In this document: in pieces, positions 1 to 62,520 of the stretch
Numbering within the stretch: position 1 is the first letter of the stretch
Layout of the letters: every line of letters begins with the position of its first letter
Assembly (NCBI GenBank): GCA_036925085.1
Contig: JAUPFP010000037.1
Coordinates: 640,001-704,000, forward strand
Length of the DNA stretch: 64,000 nt
Direction of reading: 5' to 3'
From: Brachycybe producta
Taxonomy: Eukaryota > Arthropoda > Diplopoda > Playtdesmida > Andrognathidae
Notes under the pieces: model-generated
Seen by the model: only the letters and a program-made list of their open reading frames with translations
The model's database searches: none
What the model was told of the DNA's origin: nothing
Made by a program: the position numbers and the translations under genes

Positions 1-3000
1 TCATCACCATCTATTGGAAATGGATACAACCATCAAAATGGAATCAAAAAATCCATTGAAAGTAACGGAATTGGAAATCATAAAGATATTATTAGTGAAA
101 ATGGTAAAGTCCATCTACAACGTCGTGTGGGACTGGTTAGTGGAACTGCCCTCATCGTGGGGACCATGATAGGTAAAATAAAAAAACACCTTTCTTTAAT
201 AATGTTAAATCAATTAACTATAATTTTAAAAAAAACATGGTCCATTATTGACACAGGTTCAGGCATCTTTGTATCACCAAAAGGACTACTTCAACGAACC
301 GGTTCAGTAGGTTTAAGTCTTGTTGTATGGGCAGCATGTGGTGTTTTATCCATGTTGGGTAAGTTTTCGTAAAAAACATGTACAGTGAAAACACCATTTA
401 ACACGAAATAGATTTTCGATATCGTACCTCTATTTAGAGTTTTTCCATATATTTTTAATTCGTTTAACACGAAAATATCGGTTAACATAAAGAATTTTTT
501 TCGATCCCATGAATAGAAATTATGTAAAATCTATTTTTAACACGAATTTTTTTAATAAACATAAATAAACGACATATTATAAAATGTAAAATATGCAATA
601 TTCAAAATTCCTGATTTTTAAGTTTTAATATTAAAAAAAATGTTCACATTATTTGTTTTATAATAAATACATATTATAAAATGCGTTTTTAAAATTAATT
701 CTTTTAACACGAAATTCACTTAGCACTAAAAAAATATTCTGAACTTTACAATTTCGTGTTAAGCGTTTTCCACTGTATATAATAATCAGCATTTTTTTTG
801 GCTCAAATTCTGAAAGATCCGTGCAAAAAATACTCGTTGCTTTTTTCTTCTTCTCTGTATTCTTCTCATCATTATTAACCTTAAGTCCAATCTTTGCTTT
901 CAATCCTTTTCCCTCCCTACCGTATGTTTTTTTTTCTTCGTAACTTTTAAGGAGCTTTATCTTATGCCGAACTCGGCACTATGATTCCGCAATCCGGAGC
1001 CGAGTATTCTTATTTTCTGGAAGCTTTTGGTTCGCTTTCTGCGTTTCTTTTCTCTTGGGTTTCCATCTTTATACTAAAACCTTCCATGCTGGCCATCATC
1101 TGTTTAAGCTTTGGCGAATATGTTGTCGAACCATTTGTAACCGGTTGCGAAGCTCCGATGTTTGCAATTAAACTCGTCGGTGCTTTCACTGTTGGTAAGT
1201 ATATAGCTTTATAGCTGCTCCTCTCCTTGAAAATCCCGATCATCTTCAGATTTCATCCTCAACATTCGAAACCTCTTTGATTTATTGTTGATTTTGTTGC
1301 GTCTATTGCATTTTTGTATTGTTTTGCAACAATTTGCATCTTTTTCCGTACCCTAAATGCTGCAGTTTGCTTTCAATCCACAACTAATATCAGTATAAGA
1401 GCATTAGAAACTAGAAAAAGAATAATACCAATTGGTAACATAATAATTCTTCCAGGAGCACTATGTTATGCCGAATTAGGTACAGTTGTACCAAAATCAG
1501 GTGCCGAATATCAGTACTTCAAGAATGCGTTTGGTCCTAGATTGAAACCTCTACAAGACATTCCAGCTTTCATTTATGTGTGGACGGCTATTCTAGTTTT
1601 GAAACCGGCTTCGATGGCGATCATTGCGTTGGCCACAGCCGAATACATAGTGAAACCCTTTTTTCCCCATTGTCCCACACCTGATATGCCTGTCAAATTG
1701 CTTGCTGCATTCACTTTATGTAAGTTTTTGCATGACAATTATCATTTATTTATTTCAATTTTTTTTAGTTCTACATTATAGTTTATTTTAATCAATTTTA
1801 GTTAACGTTGTTTTCTACGAACACCCGATTTTTGAACTCTGCTTATTCTGCTCTTTCGGAAGAGCAACACTTACGTAGAAATTGAAAGTGTGTTAGAAAC
1901 TAGAACGATAGCTTGAATCACTTAATCATGTTTCCATGTTGATATGTTTCAAAATAAACTTTTATATGAAGTTGGGTTATTTTCAAACTGACATAAAATG
2001 CTTATTTTGAAAGATATCATCTTAAAAATACCAGTGATTGTGATTCAAGTGATTGAGTTTCTAGTTTCTAAAACATCCGCAAGTTTATTTTAATTTTGAT
2101 TCTGAAAAATAGATTAAACAGAGTTCAAAGGGCCGTTTATATTTTAAAACCATCTTTTATTTTAGTTTTATTTCAGTTTTTATTTTCTCTGCATTTTTAT
2201 GTGTTTAATAAGCATGGATTTGGGTTTATTATTGAAAAAAAAAATCCGTAACTCATAGAAAATGTGTGTCAATTATTCAGCTTCATACTTGAAATAAGTG
2301 GTTCTTATCTCTAAATGTAATCTAACCACATCTGAACTACTAAAAGTCAGTTATGATCCGTCATAAAAACCTCATAATCATTAATCCAACTTTGGTCAAG
2401 TGAAATTACTCTCATTTTTTTTGTTTTGCAAAGATCAATTTACAAATTTTTAATACGATTCGAACTTCCGAAGGGTTAATTAATTATAACTATATTTATT
2501 AGATATTGTGGGCATAAATATAATATATATATATACTTGTATATAAACACACCAGAGTCTAAACTCTTATGGGTCAAACTGACCATAAATTTTTGCTTGA
2601 CATACTTCCCACATTATAAGAAAATTTCATTTTTTTACTTAATTTTTCTATAATTTAATTTTTTTTGGTATCTTTTTTCCCCTTCCATTTTTTTAGGTAT
2701 CATAACGTTAATCAATTGCTACAGTGTCAAAATGGCAACTTCAATACAGAACATATTTACAGCAGCTAAATTATTGGCTATTTTAATCATTATCGTTGGT
2801 GGTGTTATGAAGTTATCTCAAGGTATACAAATTTTTTTATATAAAAACAATAAAACAGAACAGACTTATCAGACTTACCATTTTGTAGTACCGTAAATAA
2901 AAACCGAAACACAATAACGTCATTTTCATTTAAATTGTCATCATCATTATCAAACTCTCAACAGTCATTAACTTATAATTAAAAATTTCATTTCAAAATC

Positions 3001-6000
3001 AATTAAAATTACTGCTTTAATCAAATTACTTTACAAATCATTTTAAATCAAATACAAAAAAAAAACAATTAAAAAATCAACGATTACAAACCTGAACGTA
3101 GAAATTTGACAATTCTATTTGATAAAACACGTAATCAGAAATACTTAAAACGCAAGTTTCGAGTAGTTTGAAAACCAAAATAGTTTAAAATACAAAAAAA
3201 AGAGCAGTAATTTGTAATTGAGAAGCAAATAAAAAGTATTTTGATTTCATTTTTTTATTAGAAAAGGTAATTAACAGGGCTTGGATTTTTATTTCTCAAT
3301 CTGTAGCCCATGAGCCAAATTTGAAGTAACAATTCCCCGTTTAGATCAACCGACAATTGTTTTTCTTTTTTTTTTAATAAAAACGCTGGTTAGAGGCTAG
3401 AACTCTAGTTTACAACTGATAGTAACTAAATATCTAGCCTCTTACCAGCCTTTTTTTATTAGAAAAAGCATAAGTAAAGTTACTCTAATGATGATGATTA
3501 CTTCACAATTGGCACTTGAGCCACAAATTGAGAAACATTTGCTTGATATTTTGCATAAAAATCCGAACCTTAATAATTAATTACATTTACCAAATTACAA
3601 AGTTTTAAAAGTATAATGTGATGAATTACTAATTATTTAAAAAAAGTAATTTCATTGGAGTAATTCATTACTTTTGACAAATTACAACCTAATGATACCC
3701 CTATGATGCTTGCAAATATTAAAGGAAACACTCAGTATTTGGCCACTGGATTCGAAGGTTCGACAACATCTTTCGGTAACATTGCCACTGCATTCTACAA
3801 TGGTCTTTGGGCCTATGACGGCTGGTAAGTTACAACACAAATGATAACATACTGTTTAACATGTTTTCTGAACAATTTTCGAATTCTAGTTATTCTGCAT
3901 TTCAAGAGCGCGACACTAAGGAGAGATTGAAAAAGCTTGTTAAAAACTAGTTATCTTTCAAAATAAACTTTTTTAATGAAAAAAAAAAAAATTAAAAAAT
4001 ATAGTCATTTTCAAACTTGACAAAATGTTTATTTTCTTGTTTCTAAAACACTTTCAAGTTTCTATTAATCCTGAATGACAGAATAACCAGAGTTCGAGTT
4101 GCGTTTGGAAATTTAAAACCCATCTTAAAATACTTCTTATTATTTTTTTTCCTAGGAATAATTTAAACTACGTCACAGAAGAAATCGTGAATCCATTCGT
4201 GTAAGAAATCAGAACAAGAACATTTGGTGTTTTTTTTATAAATTATTTACAACAATTATATATCGATGAATTTTTTGATTAAAAATCGTTTAATATGAAC
4301 CAAAAAATGTTGTATATTTTTTTTCAGGAATTTGCCACGTTCCATAATTTTGGGTCTCCCTTTAGTCACCTTCTGTTACATTCTCGTGAATGTGGCATAT
4401 TTGACTGTTATGTCGCCCGAAGAACTTTTAGCATCAGAAGCAGTTGCCGTGGTGAGAAAAAATATAAAACAGAATATAAATTTATTATAATTTATATGTA
4501 TACCGATACGTGTATATATATACATATACGAAGTGGCAACAATGATCGATTCGTCGGTCGATCGTTACGTAAATGACGAACGTTAACGTAATAAACGGAA
4601 GAAAAACGAGGTATATGTATATCTCGAGATTCTTTTAACTGAGGGGGGTTCGGGGGTATCGACTTTTCATTTAAGACATTTGGTGATAGAGTACTTGGAG
4701 GACTTTCTTGGTGCATTCCATTATTTGTGGCATGTTCGACGTTCGGAGCAGCTAATGGCAGCTGTTTCACTGGAGGAAGGTATTTAATTACCCCCATCAT
4801 TTTCGATATTTCATCGAGTTATCGTCAATATTTGAACTCAACTTAATAAATATATGTAATTTTTTGTTGTTGTCAGGCTTTGTTTTGTTGCAGCTCGTGA
4901 AGGACATCTCGTAGACATTCTGTCCTTCGTCAATGCAAAGCGATTTACACCAAGCCCAGCTCTCATTTTCAATGTAAATAAAACTTATCTTTCAGTTTTA
5001 AGCTTCAAGGAAACTGGCACTGGCAAACTGGACTGTCTGGCCTTCTTTATCAGAAGTCATCTTAGAAATCCGCAAAGCTTAATAGAAACTACAAGAGCAA
5101 TGGGAATGATATAAATTAAATTTCATGGCAATATCTTTCAAAATAAACGTTTTATAGCAGTTTTTTTTCGAACTCTGATTATTCCATACGTTTCAGAAGC
5201 AACCAACATTAATGAGAGACTCAAAAAATGTACTAGAAACTAGAAACGGGTAGCTGAATCAATTAAATTATATTTTCATGTTGATATCTTTAAATATAAA
5301 TTTTATAGACAAAAATTTACGTAAAAATATCTCTCTGCTTGAGTAATTTTCAAGCTAACTTTAAAAGCTTATTTTAAAATATAGCAACATATTAAGTGAT
5401 TAAGCTACTGTACATTTCTAGTTTCTAAAACACTTTCAAAGTTTCTCTTAATTTTGCTCTCCTGAAAGACATAATTAACCAGAGTTCAAAGGACGTTTTA
5501 GATTTAAAACCAAGTTAAATATTTCAATATAATGGTGATTACCATGAAATTATTTATGTGATAATTTTTCATTTGTGTCGTTTCTAATAAAGTTGGAATT
5601 TTATTAAAAATTCTAAATCCAATGAATTTTCCAGTATGACAGTGGCATAACCTCTTCAAGCGCATTAAGGCTCAAAATCAAGAAGGAAACTTTTCACTTG
5701 AACCATCATCTGAACATGGTTTCAATCAAAAATAATTTTCCTAGATGGTGAAACGCCTGTTCAGAGAGTTTAAGTTCGAGTGCTAAAGTTTTCCTTCTTC
5801 AGTTTAGATCTTAGAATTTTGACTTTTGTTCTTGTTTTTTTTTAGGCTTGCATTGCTTTGCTAATGATCATTCCTGGTAACATTGGAAGCCTCATCGATT
5901 TCTTTAGCTTTACGGCATGGATCTTTTATGGTGGAGCCATGTTGGCCCTCATCGTGATGCGATGGACTCAGAGAGACGTTCCGAGACCGTATAAAGTAAC

Positions 6001-6515
6001 GACAATTGTCATAAGTTATAACGAACCGATAACTTCTAACTGTAAACGTATCTTCTAGGTCAACATATGTGTTCCCATCATTGTTTTAGTAATATCCGTA
6101 TATTTGGTGGTTGCACCGATCATAGACAACCCTCAGATGGAATATTTGTATGCTGGCATGTTCATCTTTGCTGGACTCATCTTTTATGTTCCTTTCGTAC
6201 ACTACAAACTCCAACTCAAGATCATGAGTGAGTAATATTCAGTAGGAATATATATAGTGGAAACCGTTTAACACGAAAAATCGGATAAATAAAAATATAT
6301 ATTCGGTCGTGTCTCTCAGGAAAGGTTTTTTTTTCCATGCAAAAGCAAACTAAATATCTTTGAAGCCATCTTAAATGATTTCCACTGTATTTTTTTTAAA
6401 AAAAAAAACTAAGTTTGATTCTATAAAAATGAAAATTTCATTTCAAACAGGAAAAATCACGGTGTTTTTCCAACTTCTACTCGAAGTGGCTCCGAGTGAC
6501 CAACCACCAGATTAA
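1..6515 (+). CDS. b(0,+)-type amino acid transporter light chain, SLC7A9-like (5' partial)
   Basis: Twelve-TM APC-superfamily exchanger of the heteromeric amino-acid transporter light-chain family. It would act at the plasma membrane, disulfide-linked to an SLC3 heavy chain, and exchange neutral or cationic amino acids. Exons read from splice sites: <1-172, 257-358, then either 952-1194 (3A) or 1456-1719 (3B), 2697-2822, 3725-3824, 4156-4200, 4328-4451, 4676-4779, 4877-4973, 5846-5995, 6059-6227, 6451-6515 (TAA 6513-6515). The sum is 1497 nt with 3A, or 498 residues from the window edge. Diagnostic signatures are the TM1 unwound segment [43 protein letters not shown] and the C-terminal [12 protein letters not shown]. 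The reading is in frame from base 1, so the initiator lies outside the window. AATAAA follows at 6605-6610. The C-terminal half resembles SLC7A9 more than LAT1 or y+LAT; this is a judgement from family memory and could be wrong at subfamily level. Confidence 0.92.
381..777. mobile_element. F10 pogo/Tc1-like non-autonomous element
   Basis: It lies in intron 2 of the SLC7A9-like gene. It is bounded by TACAGTGAAAAC at the left and GTTTTCCACTGTA at the right, with the motif TTAACACGAAA in both termini and repeated inside. TA at each edge fits a TA target duplication. No transposase is present. Confidence 0.6.
952..1194 (+). other. Alternative exon 3A of the SLC7A9-like gene
   Basis: 243 nt (81 codons), with acceptor AG at 950-951 and donor GTAAGT at 1195. 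It starts by completing the Gly codon left by exon 2 and ends one base into a codon, exactly as exon 3B does. It encodes the end of TM2 through the extracellular loop after TM4: [18 protein letters not shown], then a b(0,+)AT-like TM3, then [11 protein letters not shown]. The Cys near its end aligns with the light-chain Cys that bonds to the heavy chain. Confidence 0.88.
1456..1719 (+). other. Alternative exon 3B of the SLC7A9-like gene
   Basis: 264 nt (88 codons), with acceptor TTCCAG ending at 1455 and donor GTAAGT at 1720. It is homologous to exon 3A along its whole length ([20 protein letters not shown]... [11 protein letters not shown]) but diverged. It is seven residues longer, with the extra residues after NAFG, and its TM3 is more LAT/y+LAT-like. 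Phase is identical to 3A, so either can join exon 2 (ends 358) to exon 4 (starts 2697). Including both would duplicate TM3, so they are most simply mutually exclusive. The heavy-chain Cys is kept. Confidence 0.87.
1826..2158. mobile_element. F2 palindromic element
   Basis: Copy in intron 3 of the SLC7A9-like gene, with both arms present. The reference description of F2 is under 59605-59922. Confidence 0.6.
3276..3570. mobile_element. F3 hAT-like palindromic MITE, copy 1
   Basis: Ends AGGGCTTGG and CCGAACCTTA. The centre is a hairpin of GGCTAGAACTCTAG facing a related copy. Flanks gtaattaa and ataattaa match at 7 of 8 bases, as an 8-bp target duplication would. It lies in intron 4 of the transporter gene. 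Confidence 0.6.
3866..4133. mobile_element. F2 palindromic element
   Basis: Copy in intron 5 of the SLC7A9-like gene. The left arm starts near CGAATTCTAGTTATTCTG and the right arm ends near AAAACCCATCTTAAA. Confidence 0.6.
5160..5516. mobile_element. F2 palindromic element
   Basis: Copy in intron 9 of the SLC7A9-like gene. Both arms are recognisable (CGAACTCTGATTATTC left; AGAGTTCAAAGGACG right). Confidence 0.6.
6255..6389. mobile_element. F10 pogo/Tc1-like element, short copy
   Basis: Bounded by TAGTGGAAACCG...TTTAACACGAAA and TTTCCACTGTA. It lies in the last intron of the SLC7A9-like gene and is much shorter than the copy at 381-777. Confidence 0.5.
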
Positions 6516-17743: not shown

Positions 17744-17773
17744 TGAGTTTTAATATTTTATATATTAATAATT

Positions 17774-20700
17774 ATGGGTTCTAATATTCGTACACTCATC
17801 GGTGTCCAAGAATTTTCATCAACAACTGACATCTGGAAGGCTCTTGTGGCCGAATTTTTAGGTGTTCTCTTCTTGGTCTTAGTGGCCTGTGGTTCCTGTC
17901 TTCAATGGGACAATCATCCAGTTCCGAGTGGAGTCCACATTTCTCTTGCTTTTGGAATCACTGTGGCCACTCTAGTCGTTTGTATTTGTCATGTCAGCGG
18001 TGGACATATCAATCCAGCGGTTACTTTGGCCATGTTGGTCACTGGTAAAGTAAGCGTCTTGAGAGCCGTCACTTATATTTTGTCTCAATGTGTTGGAGGA
18101 ATCGTTGGAGCCGCAATTCTCAAGTCAGTTACACCAAGTGAAGGACAGGGAACTCTTGGACTTACTCTAATCGATCCGCAGTTGGGTCCTGTTCAAGGGT
18201 TTGGAGTTGAATTTCTGATCACCTTTGTGTTGCTCTTTACCGTTTTTGGAGTTTGCGATGGAAACCGAATTGATTCTAAAGGATCTGGCCCACTGGCCAT
18301 TGGACTAGCTGTGGCCACCTGTCACTTGTTTGCGGTAAGTGAACCAAAAAAAAACACATGGTCCTCCAAAAAATTACACTTCAGTTTTGAATCATGTTAA
18401 AAATGTCCGATCATTTTTGGAGAGAAAAATATTTTTTAAAGCTATTTTTAAAAGAATTTTTAAATTTCTTTGAAAATTAGAAACTAGAAAAGTAAAAAGA
18501 GAAGTTGCCCTATTGATAAATGAAATTTAACCTGTAATTTTTGTACGTATTTTGTTGCGTAATTACTAATTAAGTATGTATCACGGTACCACAAATAAGG
18601 AAAGGTAAACCGCAAAAAAGGCGGGAAAATTAACCTCACGTAAGGTGTTTGAAAACCACTGACATTGTGACCCACTTTCGTGAAGAAGAAAAATCACCAA
18701 CACTCTTGAAATCCTCAATTAATTAATTAATGATGTTTTATAAATTGTTGATTTTCAAATTCTGTGTTTCAGATACAAAATTAAGAAAAACTAGAAAGTG
18801 TTTTGGAAACTAGAAGGGCAGCTCAATCACTTCAGGCGTTTTGATATCTTTCAAAATAAACTTAAAAATAAAATTAAAAAAATATCATCACCTTAAATTT
18901 GTGTAATTTTTAAATTACCATAAAAAAAATCTTATTAAAAAAAATACCTTAAAATAATTGAGCTGTCCTTCTAGTTTCTAAACCACATTCAAGTTTCTTA
19001 TTAATTTTTGCACTTGAAAGACAATAATCAGAATGTTTGCAGATTTAAGAAAATTAGTTATTTTAAAATGAAACATTTTTACGTTTTTTACGTTTCAGAA
19101 GTACAACACTCAATTAGAAATTGAATGTGTTAGAAACTAGAACGGTAGTTAAAATTTCATGTTTGATATCTTATAAAATAAACTTTTTACAAAGAAAATT
19201 TTTAAAGAATATCTTTTTCTTACTTTTAAAAAGTTAAGATTATTTTCAAAAATTGAGATTAAAGGTTTATTTTAAAAGATAACAATATGAAAATAAAGTT
19301 AAAGTGATTCAGCTACCCTTCTAGTTTCTAAAACACGTTCAAGTTTGCACCTAAAAGACAGAATTAATAATCGAAAGGGCCCCGTTTACACTTTAAAACA
19401 ACGTTAATTTTTAGCTTTCCTTTTTTTTCCAAAATGGTTCAAGACTTTTAAAGAAAAACATTTTTAATAATTATAAAACTTATAGTAAAGTCTATTTTTT
19501 TTTTCAATTACATAAATCATAAATGTAACTTTATGGGTCAGTGAAAAGGAAGTGGGTCGCGGCTATTCACTGACCCTGAAACCCTTCAAAATAAAAAAAT
19601 TATGTCCCATAAATTCCATAATCAAAAGAGAAAAGAAAGAAACCTTGTAAAATGTAATTTGAAACACTTTCTCTTTTCAACCAAATAACCTCAATAATAA
19701 ATTACATATTTTTCTACTTTTCAATAATATTTAATTTTATTTCTTCTTCTGTGAAGTCATATTTTAAACAAGTTTTTTATTTTCATTTCTAGAAAGTTCA
19801 ATTGTTGAGTTCCATATTCTAGAAATTACTATCTGAACTTTTTTAATAAATAAGAACAGATAAGTAAAAAAGTTAGAAAGAAAGAAAAACCGGTTCCTTA
19901 ATAAATATGCACCATGTTCATTTTTCCTAAATTTAATTTAAAAATTTTACAAGTTTTAATTACAATAAAGATTAAATCTAACAACATTACATGTTTAAAT
20001 GATACGATTATATCATGTTTTCAAAATGTCTTCTCCGTTCTCATCAAGGCATTGCTGACATATCGATATGAGAAACTGAATCCGCAAACATCAATTAACG
20101 CATCTGTTTTTTTTTTTGTAATTGTGCGACAATTCTCTTCGATTTCTTCCCATTTATAATAATTATAACAAGAAATCAAAAAAAAAAAAAAGAATTGTCG
20201 CACAATTACAAAAGACATGTTAATTAATGTTTGCAATATCAGTTTCTCATATCGACATGTCAGCAATGCCTTGATGAGAGGAATGGAGAAGACATTTTGA
20301 AAACATGTTATAATTCCTCATTTAAACATAAAATATATGCAATGCTGTTATATATCTACAGTAATCTCTTTATTATAACATTTACTCTTAACTATAAAAT
20401 CACAAAATTAAATTTAAGAAAATAAACATGGCAGCTATTAACAAGCAAAGTGTGTACACAAGGCATTTAGAAATCGGGAAGAACTTCAGTTGGCTCCGCC
20501 CTTGTTATGACGAACGCAACTTCTGAATTGGTTGGTTATGTAGTCTGACGTCACATGCTCCGCCCTTGTTATGACGAACGCAACTTCTGAATTGGTTGGT
20601 TATGTAGTCTGACGTCACATGCTCCGCCCTTGTTATGACGAACGCAACTTCTGAATTGGTTGGTTATGTAGTCTGACGTCGAACCACACAACAAACCAAT

Positions 20701-32300: not shown

Positions 32301-33227
32301 GAATCCACTTAAGGACATGAACATCAAATAAAAATTGACTTTATTATTAATATTTTAAATTGAAATTTACTAAATCAAGTAAAATTAAGTAAATTAACTC
32401 AATATTTTCAGAATATTAACTGAATAAATTGAATTTGACATATTGTTTGTTTGCCCTTCAAAGGGCTACGTAGAACACATTTATTATTTAAACGCATTTA
32501 AATTTTAAGGTGTGTACTAGGTATTACACGATTAAGGCCTAAATAAGATAATTAACTTTCATATGACATTGTTATTACCTTTTCACTCTTCATTCCATTT
32601 TTTTTCTTCTAATTTTTCTTTATAATTCAGATTTCAAATAATTTCTTCTCACCTCGTATTTTATTTTTTAGACAAGGACCAAAACGAGTTAATTTGTGTG
32701 TCCTAATAAAAAATCTTAACCACGGCCCACATAAATAAAACAAGAATTTCTAAAACCACATTAGTAAAGCTCATCTTGAAGAAAAAAAGAGACCGACTGA
32801 CCTACACACACACACATTCATTTTTGTAAGGTATCCTTGAGGGTAAAATTATATTACTGTACGTGCTCAACATGTTAGATAGGCTTATTAGTGTTGGTTG
32901 TTACTGTCGGGTACCACTTTCACCCTAAAAAAAATCTCCCCCCACAAACACCACCAAAAATAATTTATTAAAGCCTACATTTGTTTGACACACTACAGAC
33001 TTATAAATCGATCATTGATCTCTCTAACGCGGAAAAAAAAACCCTTTTTACTAGAAATATCAAAACAAGTGCGGCAAATCTGAGCAAAAACTGCATCGAC
33101 CGGGAATCGAACCCGGGCCGCCCGCGTGGCAGGCGAGCATTCTACCACTGAACCACCGATGCTTACATGTTATTTTCCATCTGCCTGTTTTCATTTGACC
33201 GAATTTTACGGACAGGTCAACATTAGT

Positions 33228-33260
<33 letters not shown>

Positions 33261-36128
33261 TGCGTGCCTTTTATGGGAAGTGAAGAATTAAACAGCTAAG
33301 CATCGGTGGTTCAGTGGTAGAATGCTCGCCTGCCACGCGGGCGGCCCGGGTTCGATTCCCGGTCGATGCAATGCTTTTGCGTTTTGCATTTTTGATAAAT
33401 TTAGTCTGGATTTTAGTTTAGCAGAAAGTCAAAACTGAATCGAACCCGGCTGCCCACAAGGCAGGCGAGCTTTCTGCCTAAAAAATAAAAAGGTTTGCAC
33501 GTTTCAAACACTTGTTCCCATAAATAGCACGCCATTTAAAACGTAGATTTACCTCTCAATAAATTTCGGCCAAATGAAAACTGGTAAAATATGGTCAGGT
33601 TAGGTATTAATCATCATAAGAAGCTTGTGACGTCAGAAGGGTTGACTTACAATTTAGGACTGTGATGATAGCCAACATTCTCAACAACGTCCGGGGTCCT
33701 TCTTATTTTGTGTTGTTACCCCTCTATCAATAGTCAAAATAACAAGCCTAAATTTGTCCTAAACCCCTCTGGCGTAACAAGCTTCTTACGATGAGGGAAG
33801 TATAGAAAGCTCGTCAGCCACGCAAACGGCCTGAATTTGATTGTCATTTGGTTTTTTTGCAAAATCAAAACCCCAATCCAAATTTACCAAATATGCAAAA
33901 CGAAAAAAAAGCGTTGCATCGACCGGGAATCGAACCCGGGCCGCCCGCGTGGCAGGCGAGCATTCTACCACTGAACCACCGATGCATACATATTGGCCGA
34001 ATTCTACCTGTTTTCGTTTGACCGAATTTTACGGACAGGTACAACACTAATTGCCTGCCTAAGGCTGCCTTTTATGGGAAGTAAAGCAATACACAAGTAA
34101 GCATCGGTGGTTCAGTGGTAGAATGCTCGCCTGCCACGCGGGCGGCCCGGGTTCGATTCCCGGTCGATGCAACCTTTTTTCGCTTTGCATTTTTGATAAA
34201 TTTGGCCTGGATTTTAGTTTTGCAGAAAGTCAAAGTCCCACCCCTTGTCAACAGTGTTTTCAAACCAAGGCTAACTAAGCTATAATGCGCAGCTATGAAT
34301 GAAATATCTATTTGTGTAAACTTCAAACCCAGTTTTTCTAATAAGGTTTGGTCGCAGCTGTTCTTTAAAATAAAACGCAAATTGTCTACAACACTATAGG
34401 GATTTAATTATTTCTAACAACGTCATTTTAAAAAACTCTCTTCTGCTATAAAATTAGTTATCTGAATCACCACATGACATTTTAACATATTTAATGTTAC
34501 AAAGAGATAACAAAAAAAAACAATTTTGTTAAATTGAATTTTTTTTTTCTATAGAATTTGCGATAATGGAATATCTCAATCTTTATAAATTGAGAGGGGG
34601 GAAAATAGAAGAAAAGAAGTGTGCCCCGGGTGAGGATCGAACTCACGACCTTGAGATTATGAGACTCACGCTCTACCAACTGAGCCACCGAGGCGACACA
34701 TATGTGCAGGAATAACGGTCCTTCAGCCATAAAATTTAAACCCTTTTTCATTTTAAACAATAAATGAAAAACAAAAGAAAAATAAGTGTGCCCCGGGTGA
34801 GGATCGAACTCACGACCTTGAGATTATGAGACTCACGCTCTACCAACTGAGCCACCGAGGCGACACATATGTGCAGGAATAACGGTCCTTCAGCCATAAA
34901 ATTTAAACCCTTTTTCATTTTAAACAATAAATGAAAAACAAAAGAAAAATAAGTGTGCCCCGGGTGAGGATCGAACTCACGACCTTGAGATTATGAGACT
35001 CACGCTCTACCAACTGAGCCACCGAGGCGACACATATGTGCAGGAATAACGGTCCTTCAGCCATAAAATTTAAACCCTTTTTCATTTTAAACAATAAACG
35101 AAAAACAAAAGAAAAATAAGTGTGCCCCGGGTGAGGATCGAACTCACGACCTTGAGATTATGAGACTCACGCTCTACCAACTGAGCCACCGAGGCGACAC
35201 ATATGTTCAGCAATAACGGTCCTTCAGCCATAAAATTTAAACCCTTTTTCATTTTAAACAATAAACGAAAAACAAAAGAAAAATAAGTGTGCCCCGGGTG
35301 AGGATCGAACTCACGACCTTGAGATTATGAGACTCACGCTCTACCAACTGAGCCACCGAGGCGACAAATATGTACAGGAATAACGGTCCTTCAGCCATAA
35401 AATTTAAACCGTTTTCATTTTAAAAAATAAATGAAAAACAAAAGAAAAATAAGTGTGCCCCAGGTGAGGATCGAACTCACGACCTTGAGATTATGAGACT
35501 CACGCTCTACCAACTGAGCCACCGAGGCGACACATATGTGCAGGAATAACGGTCCTTCAGCCATAAAATTTAAACCCTTTTTCATTTTAAACAATAAACG
35601 AAAAACAAAAGAAAAATAAGTCTGCCCCAGGTGAGGATCGAACTCACGACCTTGAGATTATGAGACTCACGCTCTACCAACTGAGCCACCGAGGCGACAC
35701 ATGTTCTTTACCCTGATGATGATTCAGCCACGATAAAACATTTTTTACTCATTCCCGGTCATTTTTTTTTTCCTTATATTTATTTACATAGGGCAAGTAC
35801 ACAGGACCCAGTATGAACCCTGCTCGTACTTTTGGCCCAGCTGTCATTAGCGGTATCTGGGAAAACCACTGGGTAAGTCAAATTATGTCAAAATATGTAC
35901 CAGTGTCACAACAGGCATTAACCACATTTATGAATTAATTCTAAATTCCATTTATTATTCTAGGTTTACTGGCTTGGCCCATGCCTAGGTGGAATTGCAG
36001 CAGGTGTACTCTACCAACATGTCTTTGAAGCACCCAGAGTGGTCATCGAACACGATGTCCCTCTTCTGACCATCCGTAACAACAAGGACTCCAAGGAAGT
36101 GGTTGCTGACAGAACCACATCCATTTAA
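17774..36128 (+). CDS. Aquaporin, water-selective Drip/AQP1-type
   Basis: Six-TM MIP-family water channel of the plasma membrane. Exons 17774-18334, 35792-35872 and 35964-36128 (TAA 36126-36128) sum to 807 nt, or 268 residues, the usual length. The ATG follows a short T-rich leader. Both pore boxes are present: HINPAVT (Asn80-Pro-Ala) in loop B and SMNPART (Asn196-Pro-Ala) in loop E. The selectivity-filter equivalents are Phe60, His184, Pro193 and Arg199. The Phe-His-Arg trio is that of water-selective aquaporins, whereas the entomoglyceroporins have lost the His. Intron 1 falls exactly between the HLFA segment of TM5 and loop E, so a protein stopping at exon 1 would lack half the pore. Intron 1 is 17.5 kb and contains eleven intact tRNA genes. 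Assignment as Drip-like is from motif resemblance. Confidence 0.93.
18748..19045. mobile_element. F2 palindromic element
   Basis: First of two F2 copies lying almost end to end within the aquaporin intron. The left arm has AAACTAGAAGGGCAGCTC. Confidence 0.55.
19090..19408. mobile_element. F2 palindromic element
   Basis: Second of the adjacent pair. The right arm ends at TTTACACTTTAAAACAACG. Confidence 0.55.
19989..20332. repeat. Large inverted repeat, arms about 160 bp
   Basis: The left arm starts ATGTTTAAATGA and the right arm ends TCATTTAAACAT. Inner segments such as GTAATTGTGCGACAATTCT face their complement across an AT-rich centre at about 20150-20180. Indels separate the arms, so it is not a recent event. 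It is not similar to F1-F10. Confidence 0.65.
20458..20766. mobile_element. F1 MULE-like MITE, copy C, with internal 64-bp triplication
   Basis: Ends of the ACAGGCAATTAG type, weakly conserved. The left half carries three head-to-tail copies of a 64-bp block starting at CTCCGCCCTTGTTATGACG (about 20494, 20558, 20622). The right half has the normal single complement. This explains its length of about 309 bp against about 206 bp in sister copies. Confidence 0.75.
20854..20878. repeat. (GC)n/(AC)n dinucleotide tract
   Basis: GCGCGCGCACACACACAC, a compound alternating purine-pyrimidine run of the kind that can form Z-DNA. A CAT trinucleotide run follows at about 20948. Confidence 0.7.
21516..21720. 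mobile_element. F1 MULE-like MITE, copy D
   Basis: 205 bp, ends ACAGGCAATTAG and CTAATTGCCAGT. Flanks gacctgcac and cacctgcac match at 8 of 9. Confidence 0.8.
22432..22945. mobile_element. F8 inverted-repeat element, copy 2, interrupted
   Basis: Left part AGAACAGAACAACAAACCG and right part GTGTTCGGTTCTAGTCTGG match the copy at 7099-7430. An F1 element is inserted at 22586-22790. Confidence 0.6.
22586..22790. mobile_element. F1 MULE-like MITE, copy E, inside F8
   Basis: Ends ACAGGAAATTAG and CAAACTGCCTGG. The palindromic core is typical. No 9-bp duplication is visible, so the junction has been altered. Confidence 0.7.
23274..23315. repeat. (GA)n microsatellite
   Basis: About 20 GA units. 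Open frames across it on both strands are artefacts. Confidence 0.85.
23529..23724. mobile_element. F4 palindromic MITE, copy 1
   Basis: Terminal repeats TGTCAATCTGCGGAATCAG and its complement. The inner half contains a second inverted pair CAGATTCACTAG / CTAGTGAATCTG. Confidence 0.65.
23895..23931. repeat. GC-rich perfect hairpin
   Basis: CCGCCGCTTTGT at 23895-23906 faces ACAAAGCGGCGG at 23920-23931, a perfect 12-bp stem with a 13-nt AT-rich loop. It is isolated in AT-rich DNA. Confidence 0.7.
24340..24992. mobile_element. F2 element interrupted by F6
   Basis: The left arm (AACTAGAATGGTAGCTGAA) and right arm (AAGTTTCTAAAACACTTTC) are separated by the F6 insertion at 24568-24893. Confidence 0.5.
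24568..24893. mobile_element. F6 element, copy 1, inside F2
   Basis: Shares long blocks with the reverse-oriented copy at 32290-32535, for example AATTCAATTTATTCAG and TTTAAATGCATTTAAATAAT. Ends approximate ACCTATAGTACACACC and GTGTGTACAAGGT. Confidence 0.55.
25860..26248. mobile_element. Possible DNA transposon remnant, single copy
   Basis: Inverted ends ATGCGTATACACTAG and CTAGTGTGTACGTACC. The interior is less AT-rich and holds a perfect palindrome CCAACGAATTCGTTGG. No recognisable transposase. Confidence 0.4.
28556..28793. mobile_element. F5 palindromic MITE
   Basis: Ends GGCCGGCCCTAGACGTAA and TTACGTCTAGGACCGAC. Inner arms include AACTGCACATGTG facing a complement and GAGTGTTTATGACATG facing its partner. 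Only one copy was seen. Confidence 0.6.
28874..29545. mobile_element. F2 composite interrupted by F4
   Basis: F2 left-arm sequence AATAAACTTTATA runs directly into the F4 element and resumes after it as AAGACACAATTTT. Confidence 0.5.
28983..29142. mobile_element. F4 palindromic MITE, copy 2, inside F2
   Basis: Long terminal repeats TATGTTACTGTCAATCTG and CAGATTGACAGTAACATA. Confidence 0.7.
29950..30505. mobile_element. F2 element interrupted by F1
   Basis: The F2 right arm TTTCTCTTCATGTTGCACC is split by F1 copy F and resumes at TTGCACCTGAGTTCGAGAGG. Confidence 0.5.
30263..30470. mobile_element. F1 MULE-like MITE, copy F, inside F2
   Basis: Ends ACAGGCAATTAG and CTAACTGCCTGA. Left flank tgttgcacc is repeated on the right within atgttgttgcacc, where an extra TTG is present. 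Confidence 0.7.
31440..31790. repeat. F9 repeat, copy 3, interrupted by F1
   Basis: F9 landmarks (ATATGACAGTATTTTT on the left, ATATCGAGATATGACAAC on the right) surround F1 copy G. Confidence 0.4.
31481..31685. mobile_element. F1 MULE-like MITE, copy G
   Basis: 205 bp, ends ACAGGCAATTAG and CTAATTGTCTGT. Perfect 9-bp duplication gtatttttc (31472-31480 and 31686-31694). Confidence 0.85.
32290..32535. mobile_element. F6 element, copy 2 (reverse orientation)
   Basis: Reverse complement of much of 24568-24893, ending GGTGTGTACTAGGTATTA. Confidence 0.55.
33092..33162 (-). tRNA. tRNA-Gly(GCC), copy 1
   Basis: 71 nt including discriminator A. The acceptor pairs GCATCGG/TCGATGC, D-arm GTTCAGTGGTAGAA, anticodon loop with GCC, and T-loop GGTTCGATTCC. 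It diverges from copy 2. Confidence 0.95.
33300..33370 (+). tRNA. tRNA-Gly(GCC), copy 2
   Basis: Same 71-nt sequence as copy 1, opposite strand, 137 bp away. A short T-run follows within 10 bp as a Pol III terminator. Confidence 0.95.
33436..33475 (-). pseudogene. tRNA-Gly relic (3' part)
   Basis: GAATCGAACCCGGCTGCCC and AGGCAGGCGAGC on the plus strand match the T-arm and anticodon arm of the intact genes with substitutions. The acceptor and D-arm are gone. Confidence 0.6.
33806..33846 (+). pseudogene. tRNA-Gly relic, heavily mutated
   Basis: GAAAGCTCGTCAGCCACGC then GGCCTGAATTTGATTG aligns with the intact gene from the D-arm to the T-arm with many mismatches, including in the anticodon stem. 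Confidence 0.55.
33915..33985 (-). tRNA. tRNA-Gly(GCC), copy 3
   Basis: Identical tRNA body to copies 1 and 2. Its flanks resemble those of copy 1, so the divergent pair 3/4 looks like a duplicate of the pair 1/2. Confidence 0.95.
34101..34171 (+). tRNA. tRNA-Gly(GCC), copy 4
   Basis: Identical tRNA body, followed by a T6 run. The upstream TTTTATGGGAAGT is shared with copy 2. Confidence 0.95.
34622..34694 (-). tRNA. tRNA-Met(CAT) elongator, array unit 1
   Basis: 73 nt. Acceptor GCCTCGG/CCGGGGC with discriminator A, loop CTCATAA (anticodon CAT) flanked by the U31/U39 non-pair seen in animal elongator tRNA-Met, T-loop GTTCGATCC. Transcription would run antisense to the aquaporin, with a T-rich terminator just below 34622. 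Confidence 0.94.
34789..34861 (-). tRNA. tRNA-Met(CAT), array unit 2
   Basis: Same sequence as unit 1, 167 bp away. Confidence 0.94.
34956..35028 (-). tRNA. tRNA-Met(CAT), array unit 3
   Basis: Same sequence as unit 1, with a near-identical spacer. Confidence 0.94.
35123..35195 (-). tRNA. tRNA-Met(CAT), array unit 4
   Basis: Same sequence as unit 1. Its 5' flank has small changes (TGTTCAGCAAT on the plus strand). Confidence 0.94.
35290..35362 (-). tRNA. tRNA-Met(CAT), array unit 5
   Basis: Same sequence as unit 1. The spacer to unit 6 is one base shorter than elsewhere. Confidence 0.94.
35456..35528 (-). tRNA. tRNA-Met(CAT), array unit 6
   Basis: One change from unit 1, turning the sixth acceptor pair from G-C to G-U. 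Folding should be kept. Confidence 0.92.
35623..35695 (-). tRNA. tRNA-Met(CAT), array unit 7
   Basis: Carries the same acceptor-stem change as unit 6. It lies only 96 bp from aquaporin exon 2. Confidence 0.92.
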
Positions 36129-40552: not shown

Positions 40553-40623
40553 GCATCGGTGGTTCAGTGGTAGAATGCTCGCCTGCCACGCGGGCGGCCC
40601 GGGTTCGATTCCCGGTCGATGCA
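40553..40623 (+). tRNA. tRNA-Gly(GCC), copy 5
   Basis: Identical tRNA body to the four intronic copies but with unrelated flanks. A T-run follows directly after the gene. Confidence 0.95.
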
Positions 40624-47482: not shown

Positions 47483-47736
47483 TAAAATTCTTTGTAAGTA
47501 TGTGGGTCATTCTTTCTTTTTTTATTCAGTTTCTAGAAATGAAATTGAGATTTTTAGGGTAACTGAGTTTTAGTAGCTCAAGTTCATTTATTCAAAATTA
47601 GAAATATGATATCTTGTATTTTCGGAAATAACGTAATTCATCATAAGTTCTGATAACCTTTGACTTTCTAATATATTAAAGCGAACGAATAAACTGTTTT
47701 AAAAAGCAAAAAATAATAAAAATTAACAGAACCAAA

Positions 47737-50700
47737 ATGGATTTCGTGCAGAACTTGTGGACGGTTTTAAATATTTGTTTGGATAACATTATTTCGAATA
47801 CATTACAGACAACAATAATAGTAGTTTTAACTTCAATATGTTACTGGTATATGTTTATACCCAAAGGAATACCTCCAGGACCACTTGGTTTTCCAATTGT
47901 TGGTTCAATGTTATCACTCGGAGAAAAACCTTATGAAACATTTGACAAAATGGCAAAGAAATATGGGAATATTTTTAGGTAAGACCTGGTTTAGAATCCT
48001 TAGAAGTTTGACAAAATCGGAGGGAATTTTTCATGAGGAATATCCTGTTTTATTTAGTAGAAAATGCAGACAAAGGTTTCTAAAATTATTTAGCTAATTC
48101 TTAGAGGCTAGAATTTCAAAATGATTCTAGAAACTTGAATTATATAAAATGATAATAAATTTAATAATAATAAAATATTAATAATAAATGAATTGAGCCG
48201 TTTCATTTTTATAAAATATTTAGTGTTTTGATCATCTCTCATATTAAGTGTATGGGGAGGCTGAGGTGCTGAATTTCCTCTGTAAATACTAGAAGGTACA
48301 TTGAAATTTTCTATTATAGTTATGTTTGTAAATATCTTTTCTAGATTCTCTTTAAAATTTTATTTTTTTTTATACAAAGTGATTTAGTTTTCTTTAACGT
48401 ATACCATATTTCAGTGTATTAAGTGTATGAGGAGTTTGACACCTGTGGTTTTTAATTTTCGATTTAAAAACTATTGGACCCACACAGCTTTAAATCTGAT
48501 TATGGCAAAAAAAAATTTACAGAAAATTTATTTTAAATGAAATATTCCAGTTTCTACTTGGGTAGTCGTCTAGTAATTGTGTTGAACGACTATAAGAGCA
48601 TCAAAGAAGCATTTATCAAAGAAGCGGAAAATTTTTCTGGAAGACCAGTTGGACTTAACCTAAATTTCTTTCGATCAAAAAGCGAAACAAAAAGTTTGTA
48701 TATATTATATAAGTGGGAGTCAGTGTCAAAGTTGTTTAAAATACAACCATTTATTTTTTTTGTAGGTATTTCAATGACAGATGGAGACTATTGGAAAGAA
48801 CATCGTAGATTTATTACGCACTTTCTTCGAGACTGTGGCATGGGTAAATCGTCACTCGAACCTCAACTCATGGCAAGAGTTTTGTTTTCAAAAAACACTT
48901 CAATTAATTACAAAATCAACAAATTTAATTAATCATTTTTTAATAGGATGAAGTTCAACAATTTGTGGCTGAAATGAAAAGTTTCAAAGGGCGTCCGACT
49001 GATTTCACCGACTTGGTGGCTCTAAGTGTCTGCAACAATATCACCATCCTGACATTGGGAAGACGTTTCGATTACAAAGATCCTTGGTTTTTATCTATGA
49101 AAAATTTAAACGATTCAGTCGTGTCTAAGAATGTCGTCAATCCGACAATTGCATTTCCGTGGCTCAGACACTTACCAGGACTTCGATATTTGACAAATCA
49201 ACCGAGATTGGTGTAAGAATTTACCAAGAATGATCGTATTGCGATTCAGGGTTGGAAAAATTCATTAATTTTTTTTTTTAAAAAAAAAGCTAATTTTTCC
49301 AACTCTGTTTGTTGGATCTTTCATGAACAAAACTAAGAAAAAGTGTTTTTAGACAAGAAAAATTCGTCATTAAAGTTTGGTCATTTTCAAACTCGGATAA
49401 AAAGTTTATTTTGAATGGTATCAACATTGAGCTACACTTTAGTTTCTAAAACACTTAAGTTTTCCATAATTTTACACATGAAAGACAGAATAATCAGAGT
49501 TTGAAAGGAGTTTACACTTTAAAACCACCTTAAATAAAAAAATAATTTTGTTAAAACGACCCTGTTGCTAACTTTAGAACCGTGATTTTAGTAACGTGTG
49601 GTTTTATTTTTTTCCGCAGAGATGCTTTGAAAATGACAACAGAAATGTTGAAAATAATTAAAGCTAATGAAAAGATCTACATAGAAGGAAATCGGGACAA
49701 TTATGTGAATGCATACTTTGCTGAAAAAAAAAGTAGACCCAAAGACAGCGACACCTTTAGTGGTAACGTAGTTTTCATCACCTACGAAAAAGCCCTAAAA
49801 AAGTATTATTTAATAAATTTTCTGAAAAACGTTTTTTTTTACCAGATGATTCCTTAGTTCAAAACATAAGAACTTTGATGAGTGCCGGAACAGAAACAAC
49901 TGCTAACACCGTGATGTGGGCCATGATCTTCATGATGTTATATCCAGACATTCAACGCAAGGTGCAAAAAGAGATCGACGAAGTCATCGGATCGGATAAT
50001 ACGCCGACTTGGGCAAACCGTTACAGCACGCCGTACGTCGTAGCAACGATATTGGAAATTCAACGAATGGCTACCCTGGTGCCACTCAATGTACCCCATA
50101 GGCGAGTTAAACTATAATTAATATTAACAAAAGTATTTTTTAAATTATAATGTTTGTTGTCTCGTTCAACAGAAATCGAGAAGAGACGATAATTGGTGGA
50201 TACAGAATTCCAAAAAGTACATACATAATAAGTAATCTGTTTAGCGTTCAGAATGATCCCACCGTTTGGGAATCACCGAATGAATTTCGACCGGAACATT
50301 TTCTGGATAAGAATGGTTTAGTCAAAATACCCGAACAATTCACCGTCTTTTCCTTAGGTTAAACCTTTATATAAAAATTAACTTAATTTAAATGTTTTAT
50401 AAACAGCTGATTATTGAACTCTTGATTATTCTAGTTTCAAAAGATCAACATTATATGGAAAAATTTAAAGTGTTTTAGAAACTAGAACGATATATATTTC
50501 AGCTCTCATGTCAATATCATACAAAGTAAACTTTTATTGACAAAATTTTTAAATATTGACTACTTAAAAGTTGGATCATAAAAAGTTTATTTTAAAATAT
50601 ATCAAAACTAATAAATACTCTTTGTGATTTCACTACCCTTCTAGTCTCTAAAATATCTTCAAATTTCTTTTCATTTTGTTCCTGAAAAACGAATAGACAA

Positions 50701-50939
50701 GAGTTCGAGACTCGAGGAGCGGTTTACACTTTAAAACCACTTTTAATTTCGTTTCAGGTAAACGAGCATGTCCCGGCGAACCGTTGGCTCGTGTCGAATT
50801 ATATCTGTATTTCACGACACTTCTACAACAGTTCACCTTCAAAGCACCTAATGGAATTCCACCATCCACTGAAGTTAAATTGGGTTTGACTTTAAGACCA
50901 AGACATTTTCTGACATGTGCAATCCCAAGAAATAAATAA
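47737..50939 (+). CDS. Cytochrome P450, CYP2 clan
   Basis: Heme-thiolate monooxygenase, anchored in the ER by an N-terminal TM helix (about residues 24-42, TLQTTIIVVLTSICYWYMF), followed by the proline hinge PKGIPPGPLGFP. Exons 47737-47978, 48551-48693, 48766-48872, 48947-49212, 49620-49762, 49846-50101, 50173-50357, 50758-50939 total 1524 nt, or 507 residues. Motifs in order: C-helix WKEHRRF, I-helix AGTETTAN, K-helix EIQR (ExxR), FRPEHF, heme-binding FSLGKRACPGE with the ligand Cys. Intron 6 uses a GC donor (GCGAGT at 50102); frame leaves no GT alternative. Intron 3 probably also does (GCAAGA at 48873). The CYP2-clan call rests on the PFSLGKRACPGE-type heme region and overall layout. The substrate is unknown. 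Confidence 0.93.
49325..49534. mobile_element. F2 right-arm fragment
   Basis: Lies in P450 intron 4. Ends GAGTTTACACTTTAAAACCA. Confidence 0.5.
50391..50746. mobile_element. F2 palindromic element
   Basis: Fills nearly all of P450 intron 7. The intron acceptor CAG (50755-50757) lies about 10 bp beyond the F2 right end. Confidence 0.6.
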
Positions 50940-57864: not shown

Positions 57865-58452
57865 TGGTCAGTTCGGTTTTTTTTTTAACAAAAAAAATAT
57901 AAAAATGTTAAGGTGAGTCACGAATTTTTTATAAAAAAATGTTTTCTTGTAATACGACCCGGTTTTTTTTAAAGCGGTTTTTAAAAAAAATGTCAAAAAT
58001 TTGACGAAAGAAGATGAAACAAAAAAAAACATGCGCCGGCAAAAGCGCCTTCTTCCTCCGCTTCTCCACTAGTCCTCCTCCGCTCTCTCTTCTGTAGTGA
58101 GCGACCGTCAGCAAAATGTCAGCCAAGAAAAAAAAATTGGCAGCGCAGCAATGCTTTATTTAACACATGTGGGCGGAGTTATGTCATGTGATCTTGAGTT
58201 ATAACCAATCATATTAAGAGATAGGGGACAAATGAGAATTACGTCACAATTTGGCGCCACCGTCGAATTAATTCCTAATCGTGAATAAATAAATAACTTG
58301 TGAAATTCCATCTGAATTTTTCTATTTGGTTTTTTTTTACAAAAATAATTTTCAATATAAAAAAATTTCAAAATAAAATTTAAATATCAAATTTGACAGT
58401 TATTTCCGTTATTTGTATTTATTTGCTTGAATTACTTGTATTTATTTACTTG

Positions 58453-60887: not shown

Positions 60888-62520
60888 TCTCTTTATTTCT
60901 GTCTCTCTCCTTCTCTCCCTTTCTGTCCTTCACACTCCCTCCCTTTCTGTCTTGCCCTATCACTATCTCTCCCTTTTTATCTTTCATTATCTCTATCTCT
61001 CCCTTTTTTATCTTTCCCTATCTCTTATCTCTCCCTATCTCTTATCTTTCCCTATCTCTTATCTCTCCCTATCTCTTATCTTTCCCTATCTCTTATCTTT
61101 CCCTATCTTATCTCTCCCTTTCTGTCTTTCCCTATCTCTTATCTCTCCCTATCTGTCTTTCCCTATCTCTTATCTCTCCCTTTCTGTCTTTCCCTATCTC
61201 TTATCTCTCCCTTTCTGTCTTTCCCTATCTCTTATCTCTCCCTTTCTGTCTTTCCCTATCTCTTATCTCTCCCTTTCTGTCTTTCCCTATCTCTTATCTC
61301 TCCCTTTCTGTCTTTCCCTATCTCTTATCTCTCCCTTTCTGTCTTTCCCTATCTCTTATCTCTCCCTTTCTGTCTTTCCCTATCTCTTATCTCTCCCTTT
61401 CTGTCTTTCCCTATCTCTTATCTCTCCCTTTCTGTCTTTCCCTATCTCTTATCTCTCCCTTTCTGTCTTTCCCTATCTCTTATCTCTCCCTTTCTGTCTT
61501 TCCCTATCTCTTATCTCTCCCTTTCTGTCTTTCCCTATCTCTTATCTCTCCCTTTCTGTCTTTCCCTATCTCTTATCTCTCCCTTTCTGTCTTTCCCTAT
61601 CTCTTATCTCTCCCTTTCTGTCTTTCCCTATCTCTTATCTCTCCCTTTCTGTCTTTCCCTATCTCTTATCTCTCCCTTTCTGTCTTTCCCTATCTCTTAT
61701 CTCTCCCTTTCTGTCTTTCCCTATCTCTTATCTCTCCCTTTCTGTCTTTCCCTATCTCTTATCTCTCCCTTTCTGTCTTTCCCTATCTCTTATCTCTCCC
61801 TTTCTGTCTTTCCCTATCTCTTATCTCTCCCTTTCTGTCTTTCCCTATCTCTTATCTCTCCCTTTCTGTCTTTCCCTATCTCTTATCTCTCCCTTTCTGT
61901 CTTTCCCTATCTCTTATCTCTCCCTTTCTGTCTTTCCCTATCTCTTATCTCTCCCTTTCTGTCTTTCCCTATCTCTTATCTCTCCCTTTCTGTCTTTCCC
62001 TATCTCTTATCTCTCCCTTTCTGTCTTTCCCTATCTCTTATCTCTCCCTTTCTGTCTTTCCCTATCTCTTATCTCTCCCTTTCTGTCTTTCCCTATCTCT
62101 TATCTCTCCCTTTCTGTCTTTCCCTATCTCTTATCTCTCCCTTTCTGTCTTTCCCTATCTCTTATCTCTCCCTTTCTGTCTTTCCCTATCTCTTATCTCT
62201 CCCTTTCTGTCTTTCCCTATCTCTTATCTCTCCCTTTCTGTCTTTCCCTATCTCTTATCTCTCCCTTTCTGTCTTTCCCTATCTCTTATCTCTCCCTTTC
62301 TGTCTTTCCCTATCTCTTATCTCTCCCTTTCTGTCTTTCCCTATCTCTTATCTCTCCCTTTCTGTCTTTCCCTATCTCTTATCTCTCCCTTTCTGTCTTT
62401 CCCTATCTCTTATCTCTCCCTTTCTGTCTTTCCCTATCTTAATCTTCTCTCGTTTTCTGTCTTTCCCAAATTCCCCATCTCTCCCCCTCTCTTTTTCTGT
62501 CTCTTTCTCAGTCACTTTTC
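60888..62520. repeat. Polypyrimidine tract containing a 31-bp minisatellite
   Basis: Irregular TCTCCCTTTTTATC-like repeats from 60888 pass into a highly uniform array of the 31-bp unit, written as CTCTCCCTTTCTGTC then TTTCCCTATCTCTTAT, from about 61108 to 62440, roughly 42 units with almost no variants. The unit is nearly pure pyrimidine on the plus strand. Since 31 is not a multiple of three and no frame contains a stop, all three plus frames stay open for about 500-600 codons. These are not genes. Confidence 0.93.

Follow-up and report, generated by a model that had tools for sequence, protein, structure and literature searches.

An old tandem exon duplication in an SLC7A9 orthologue of Brachycybe producta whose copies are probably spliced mutually exclusively to yield two transporter light chains

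Introduction

Can one gene for the light chain of a heteromeric amino acid transporter supply two transporters by choosing between two versions of a single exon? This question is raised by a stretch of 64,000 nucleotides from Brachycybe producta (C37:640001-704000 of a 295 Mb genome assembly in 442 contigs; henceforth the window), which opens with an SLC7A9-like gene in which two similar exons, 3A and 3B, stand side by side. An initial annotation of the window proposed that these exons are mutually exclusive and that they exchange the third transmembrane segment (TM3) while preserving the pairing with the heavy chain. We investigated the structure, age and origin of the exon pair, the ways in which its exclusive use might be enforced, and the effect that the exchange would have on the substrate pocket. 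We consider it likely that an old tandem duplication took place within SLC7A9 and that the two copies are spliced in a mutually exclusive manner, yielding two light chains.

Results

Gene model and orthology

The coding sequence stays open through the 12 exons of the window (Table 1) to the stop at 6515, giving 498 amino acids when 3A is used (form A) and 505 when 3B is used (form B), with the 5' end outside the window; since the window begins within the first listed exon, the start codon lies further upstream. The gene had been described as SLC7A9-like, and we found the same: b(0,+)AT tops the PDB matches of both forms in phmmer searches. Specifically, form A matched b(0,+)AT 7nf6 with 592.8 bits, ahead of the engineered xCT consensus (485.8) and LAT2 (426.9), and form B, searched minus its first 38 residues, matched b(0,+)AT 6yup with 563.3 bits, compared with 479.6 for the engineered xCT consensus. 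Both forms also matched the Pfam amino-acid permease profile (192.6 bits for form A and 204.8 for form B, at a cut-off of 27). The cysteine between TM3 and TM4 that pairs with the heavy chain (human Cys144) is aligned in 3A and 3B alike, as the initial annotation had held, and the Asp of the LWAYDGW motif in exon 5 aligns with human Asp233. Judged by its sequence, the window gene is the SLC7A9/b(0,+)AT orthologue.

Table 1. Features of the SLC7A9 gene in the window (positions in the window; all on the forward strand)
Feature	Position	Strand	Remarks
SLC7A9 first exon in window	1..172	+	donor gtaaaa at 173; continues upstream on C37
Exon 2, TM1 end and TM2 start	257..358	+	phase 1-1, donor gtaagt
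Candidate regulatory CU-rich pyrimidine tract 5' of 3A	840..939	+	tract start set by the reach of the scoring (110 nt)
Exon 3A	952..1194	+	243 bp; b(0,+)AT-like; encodes TM2 end, TM3 and heavy-chain Cys; pocket KPSML
3A-3B intron	1195..1455	+	261 nt; CTAAT branch-point-like A at 1387
Exon 3B	1456..1719	+	264 bp; homologous copy with seven extra residues ahead of TM3; pocket KPASM
Exon 4, common acceptor exon	2697..2822	+	126 bp
Exon 5	3725..3824	+	Asp equivalent to human Asp233; common to both forms
Exon 6	4156..4200	+	
Exon 7	4328..4451	+	
Exon 8	4676..4779	+	
Exon 9	4877..4973	+	
Exon 10	5846..5995	+	
Exon 11	6059..6227	+	
Exon 12 including TAA stop	6451..6515	+	

Other features of the window and the genome

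Besides SLC7A9, the forward strand of the window carries an aquaporin-type exon at 17747-18397 (Pfam MIP, 165 bits) and a multi-exon cytochrome P450 gene at 47680-50936 (extent judged by eye; Pfam p450 found in both frames tested), while an 808-residue open frame on the reverse strand at 55444-57867, with matches to RING, B-box, filamin and NHL repeats, would encode a protein of the TRIM-NHL type. The minus strand bears seven tRNA-Met(CAT) genes at 34612-35702, arranged as tandem repeats of a 167-bp unit (6.5 copies, 97% match), and five tRNA-Gly(GCC) genes were found, four at 33092-34171 and one at 40553. A 31-bp pyrimidine-rich tandem array at 61028-62467 (46 copies, 98% match) fits the strong strand skew and the three long open frames at the end of the window. 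Self-comparison with blastn revealed a dispersed family of short repeats, with copies at 1826-2160 (in the 3B-4 intron; borders approximate), 5168-5512 and many other places among the matches listed, where they occur in both orientations and in introns as well as intergenic DNA. Elsewhere in the assembly, the mitochondrial contig C442 (L032 and L033; 15359 bp, 18.8% GC, TGA read as a residue) has a rearranged gene order, with nd4L, nd4 and nd5 on the cox1 strand and nd1 on the opposite one (names assigned by eye), and COX1-like copies with TGA codons also occur in the nuclear-size contigs C1 and C17.

Exons 3A and 3B are homologous and interchangeable in frame

All splice borders around the pair lie where the initial annotation had placed them (358/359, 951/952, 1194/1195, 1455/1456, 1719/1720 and 2696/2697) and all are GT-AG. 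Both exons are in phase 1 at each end and have lengths divisible by three, and joining either of them to exons 2 and 4 leaves the coding sequence uninterrupted. The homology of the copies, likewise claimed before, was recovered in a two-sequence comparison (43 of 88 positions identical and 59 similar, E 9e-31), as was the greater length of 3B by seven residues; this insert sits between Gly-Pro (human residues 105-106) and TM3. A tblastn search for a third copy in the window found none, the next best matches having E values of 0.22 with the 3A query and 1.7 with the 3B query.

Placed on the human protein by means of a TM topology that we take to apply to it, the exon spans residues 79 to about 160. 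This stretch runs from the last part of TM2 through the TM2-TM3 segment and TM3 to the Cys144 loop and some 15 residues more. The earlier description of the span thus named the right elements (TM2 end, TM3 and conserved Cys) but not the right end, which lies approximately 15 residues beyond Cys144. Exons 3A and 3B are neighbouring internal exons that are homologous, similar in length, equal in phase and compatible in their splice sites, and they show in this the combination of features by which mutually exclusive exons are recognised in PMC3228551.

Both copies look constrained and their divergence is old

We then compared the two copies without the insert. They differ at 104 of 240 bases (80 codons), with 38, 15 and 51 differences at codon positions 1, 2 and 3, respectively; if the changes were spread evenly, 15 or fewer of 104 would fall on position 2 with P 1e-5. 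The proportions of differing sites are pN 0.31 and pS 0.81, the latter beyond correction, and where identical residues are encoded by degenerate codons, the codon is the same in only 14 of 41 cases. Synonymous sites are therefore saturated, which points to an old duplication. A set of nine reference sequences (b(0,+)AT of human and sheep, xCT, the engineered xCT consensus, LAT1, LAT2, y+LAT1, y+LAT2 and Asc-1) has 19 invariant columns, of which 3A keeps 18 and 3B keeps 17. Both copies thus look constrained, like working exons.

These observations bear on the idea that a single copy is in use, most likely 3A, and that the other is a relic exon, unused or rarely used. Such a relic would fit the weak acceptor of 3B (a 7-nt pyrimidine run, with 52% pyrimidine in the AG-free zone), its seven-residue insert and the smaller number of b(0,+)AT-diagnostic residues that it retains. 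However, 3B is open over 87 codons and has GT-AG sites despite the saturated synonymous change, its differences from 3A avoid codon position 2, and it preserves nearly all of the invariant columns, while a relic of this age would be expected to have decayed. We therefore regard disuse of one copy as unlikely.

Exon 3B lies about equally far from several SLC7 subfamilies

Exon 3A had been called b(0,+)AT-like and exon 3B closer to LAT/y+LAT in TM3. The former is borne out: in phmmer comparisons 3A scored 90 bits against ovine b(0,+)AT, compared with 80 against xCT, 68 against y+LAT2 and 63 against LAT1, and it keeps seven b(0,+)AT-diagnostic residues. The latter is right only in part. Over 29 TM3 columns, 3B shares most residues with y+LAT1 (15) and y+LAT2 (14), followed by xCT (13), b(0,+)AT (12), and LAT1 and LAT2 (11 each). 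Over the whole exon, by contrast, the scores are nearly level, i.e., 79.6 bits for the engineered xCT consensus, 70 for xCT, 69 for both ovine b(0,+)AT and LAT1, 68 for LAT2, and 67 for both y+LAT1 and human b(0,+)AT. Exon 3B thus appears to be about equidistant from the subfamilies and LAT-like only in part. Of the residues otherwise present only in b(0,+)AT or 3A, it keeps three (exon columns 28, 42 and 55), and at columns 21, 38 and 41 it shares its residue with 3A alone.

Phylogenetic analysis of the exons against the SLC7 subfamilies, which the initial annotation had suggested as a check, gave a divided answer on the y+LAT affinity: a grouping of 3B with y+LAT was rejected with 11 sequences (p-AU 0.024) but not with 15 (p-AU 0.139). 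In the larger set, all nine constrained trees survived the AU test at the 0.05 level (lowest value 0.114), and a sister grouping of 3A and 3B was not rejected with either set (p-AU 0.197 with 11 sequences and 0.207 with 15). In three trees built on 77 exon columns, 3B falls outside the group of vertebrate b(0,+)AT and 3A (supports 88, 92 and 88); the last of these, which includes a bacterial outgroup (59 of the 77 columns), has the form ((vertebrate b(0,+)AT, 3A), 3B) with supports 88 and 63. The outgroup, used for this purpose alone, was an APC transporter and the single relative obtained when 3B was searched against a collection of genome contigs. Relatives of 3A or 3B in a viral contig collection numbered zero, and no animal relatives were found in that collection (3A and 3B queries) or in the genome contig collection (3B query).

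The pair probably arose within SLC7A9

Searches of the assembly with 3A and with 3B returned the same places, at least six in number, namely 3A and 3B themselves and one each on contigs C6, C26, C28 and C50. Each of these four paralogous loci has a single copy of the exon (tblastn, 6-9 kb around each), so that among the heteromeric light-chain loci found (at least five) the pair is present in one of five, the SLC7A9 locus only. In all four paralogues TM1-TM3 lie in one unbroken frame, followed by a GTAAG donor in phase 1 where exon 3 ends; the intron on the upstream side of exon 3 occurs, among the five light-chain loci, in the b(0,+)AT gene only. Because the paralogues lack that upstream intron, a local tandem duplication is favoured over import from one of them. 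A more distant APC-type transporter at C44:1565643-1566758 (L001; a 408-residue open frame, with no stops in the matched part) matches 3B weakly (E 1e-5) and was left out of the five-locus count. A search for the CD98hc N-terminal domain found one heavy-chain locus in the genome, on C2.

An import of 3B from another light-chain gene, by gene conversion or shuffling, would account for its LAT-like look and would be compatible with exclusive splicing. It would also agree with the finding that 3B is as similar to the C6 paralogue (43 of 77 columns) as to 3A (40 of 77), and with AU tests in which groupings of 3B with C6, C28, C26 or C50 were not rejected (p 0.11-0.47). Nevertheless, 3B begins at exactly the position and phase of the intron that all four paralogues lack, its residues at columns 28, 42 and 55 are shared with b(0,+)AT and no other subfamily, and those at columns 21, 38 and 41 with 3A only. 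Residues private to 3B and one paralogue, on the other hand, number none for C6, C26 and C50 and one for C28. Taken together, these patterns make an import very improbable, and we retain tandem duplication within SLC7A9 as the origin of the pair.

Exclusive use and the competition between acceptors

Most likely, exon 2 would join either 3A or 3B, and either exon would then join exon 4. The divisibility of both lengths by three and the agreement of phases would also permit both exons to be joined, by cassette use or double inclusion, into a longer in-frame protein, and the intron between them is long enough for this, its plausible branch point lying 192 nt away from the donor. Against this, the product would carry two TM3 segments, and double inclusion would be harmful because the extra TM3 would shift the topology downstream. 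Moreover, adjacent exons with such features that are not mutually exclusive were reported in only 6 of 1705 genes on the fly X chromosome (PMC3228551), for which reason we hold exclusivity to be likely here and joint inclusion improbable. Against exclusivity it counts that, of 65 internal exons predicted from these features in fly, only 26 were annotated as mutually exclusive at that time (PMC3228551). On balance, we infer mutually exclusive use, and expression, of both exons.

Several mechanisms of exclusive splicing have been published (listed in PMC6071210), none of them a requirement for it. Enforcement by frame disruption does not apply to two exons with lengths of 243 and 264 bp, each divisible by three, and transcripts with double inclusion or double skipping would likewise keep the frame and escape decay. 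A mixture of U2 and U12 introns does not apply either, as 12 of 12 introns are GT-AG. Steric block operates at donor-branch point distances below 50 (PMC5740500); the one CTRAY match in the 3A-3B intron (last 110 nt scanned) lies 192 nt from the 3A donor, which makes steric block look unlikely, although weakly so, given that the pattern occurs in only 3 of 12 introns. RNA pairing between introns, assessed for the three intron pairs around the exon pair with 20 shuffles each, gave best energies of -17.6, -21.8 and -21.1 kcal/mol, close to the shuffle means of -18.4, -21.7 and -21.3 kcal/mol, and was not counted as support.

The acceptors of the two exons, by contrast, are markedly unequal. The pyrimidine tract before 3A measures 100 nt (the longest of 12 by a simple score) and that before 3B measures 7 nt; other long tracts precede exon 4 (70 nt) and exon 10 (55 nt). 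In a test made once the tract had been seen, only 1 of 300 shuffles of the intron before 3A attained its CU-window score and 0 of 300 its tetramer cluster, while the other introns tested, four in number, were unremarkable for CU enrichment. This asymmetry suggests competition between acceptors, in which the two 3' splice sites, one with a long CU tract and the other with a short one, would compete under the control of a trans-acting pyrimidine-tract regulator. This is the mechanism we prefer, at a probability still well short of even.

Predicted consequences for the substrate pocket

To describe what the exchange may mean for transport, we transferred pocket effects described for LAT2 and human b(0,+)AT to the two forms. 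The TM3 pocket reads Lys121-Pro-Thr123-Ser124-Phe125 in human b(0,+)AT, Lys-Pro-Ser-Met-Leu in 3A and Lys-Pro-Ala-Ser-Met in 3B. The forms thus differ at two pocket residues, with Ser123 and Met124 in 3A and Ala123 and Ser124 in 3B (Thr and Ser in human). Position 124 is S, A, N, G or T in all 13 comparison sequences and Met in 3A only, while Ala at position 123 also occurs in xCT and the engineered xCT consensus (2 of 13). The residue of LAT2 aligned with position 124 is Asn134, which forms a hydrogen bond with substrate (PMC7653941; PMC9618567) and whose replacement in N134Q lowers transport to about 15-20% (PMC7653941). At position 123, the b(0,+)AT variant T123M leads to isolated cystinuria (PMC8399266), and Asp233 has been proposed to serve dibasic substrates (PMC7653941).

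Both forms would keep the heavy-chain Cys, b(0,+)AT Lys121 and the shared Asp233 (for cationic substrates). In form A the hydroxyl linked to cystine recognition would be retained and the polar equivalent of LAT2 Asn134 lost, whereas form B would lose the cystine-linked hydroxyl and keep the polar residue. Given these opposite changes at 123 and 124, the forms should differ in their preference or affinity for cystine versus neutral or dibasic substrates, and they are predicted to have the same partner and charge preference with a different side-chain fit. We find substrate divergence between forms A and B plausible; that the locus provides two light chains with the same heavy-chain Cys, Lys121 and Asp233 and a pocket that differs at 123 and 124 has, in our estimate, a chance only just below even.

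The swapped exon covers the segment that contains G105R and T123M, two human cystinuria variants (PMC5511796), so that the pair, if both forms are made, could serve to separate cystine from dibasic recognition. A heteromeric amino acid transporter would then have one of its pocket-lining helices exchanged naturally, by splicing. A more far-reaching proposal, which we offer as speculation with little probability, is that the SLC7A9 locus divides the b(0,+) site between form A, with a TM3 hydroxyl and Met, and form B, with Ser but without that hydroxyl, such that cystine exchange and dibasic or neutral exchange are tuned separately, and that vertebrates have lost 3B. Under this proposal the pair may predate the vertebrate-arthropod split, as the placement of 3B outside vertebrate b(0,+)AT and 3A by maximum likelihood would allow.

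Comparison with known systems

We compared the window gene with human SLC7A9, whose exon 4, with borders that we presume to lie at 236 and 478, would fit window exon 3; with Drosophila sobremesa (CG9413), an insect light chain that we take to be orthologous to it; and with SLC7A2 and fish slc7a1, the alternative exons of which are regarded as strictly exclusive. Human SLC7A9 is orthologous by sequence, and its intron 5, at c.604 (Gly202 by our count), falls in the same place as window intron 4-5 (PMC5511796). The variants given for human exon 4 run from c.285 to c.415 and include Gly105, Thr123 and Ile127 (PMC5511796); the variant table has a single exon 4 and mentions no second copy, whereas the window gene has two. 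For sobremesa, the protein Sbm is described as pairing with CD98hc (PMC6167638), and one locus of that heavy-chain type was found in the assembly. Four sobremesa transcripts are described, PA and PB being shifted by nine residues relative to each other close to the N-terminus (antibody peptide at 42-59 in one and 51-68 in the other; PMC6167638), and neither 'exon' nor 'splic' occurs in the main text of that paper. Among the matches listed in a search of main articles of the open-access literature, we found no report of mutually exclusive exons for SLC7A9 or for other light chains of heteromeric transporters. PMC4209874 and PMC8316623 likewise offered nothing on this point, and the terms looked for do not occur in PMC8478756 or PMC10345071.

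Within SLC7, SLC7A2 (CAT-2A/CAT-2B) and fish slc7a1 (exons 6a/6b) also have two similar alternative exons, and for SLC7A2 the choice determines whether affinity is low or high (PMC7584565). These genes belong to the CAT subfamily, however, and swap TM8-TM9 with the cytoplasmic hairpin loop, while the window gene would swap TM3 and the heavy-chain Cys. If both forms are made, they would be an example of an animal enlarging its set of light chains through splicing instead of gene duplication. The unequal acceptors, with one long and one short pyrimidine tract, recall those of TPM1 6a/6b, FYN 7a/7b and U2AF1 Ab/3 (PMC5224494), which are vertebrate genes with demonstrated regulation, whereas 3A and 3B are known from their sequence pattern. 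Tandem-duplicated exons that are probably mutually exclusive are thus of a known kind, of which the SLC7A9 gene of the window is probably a further case.
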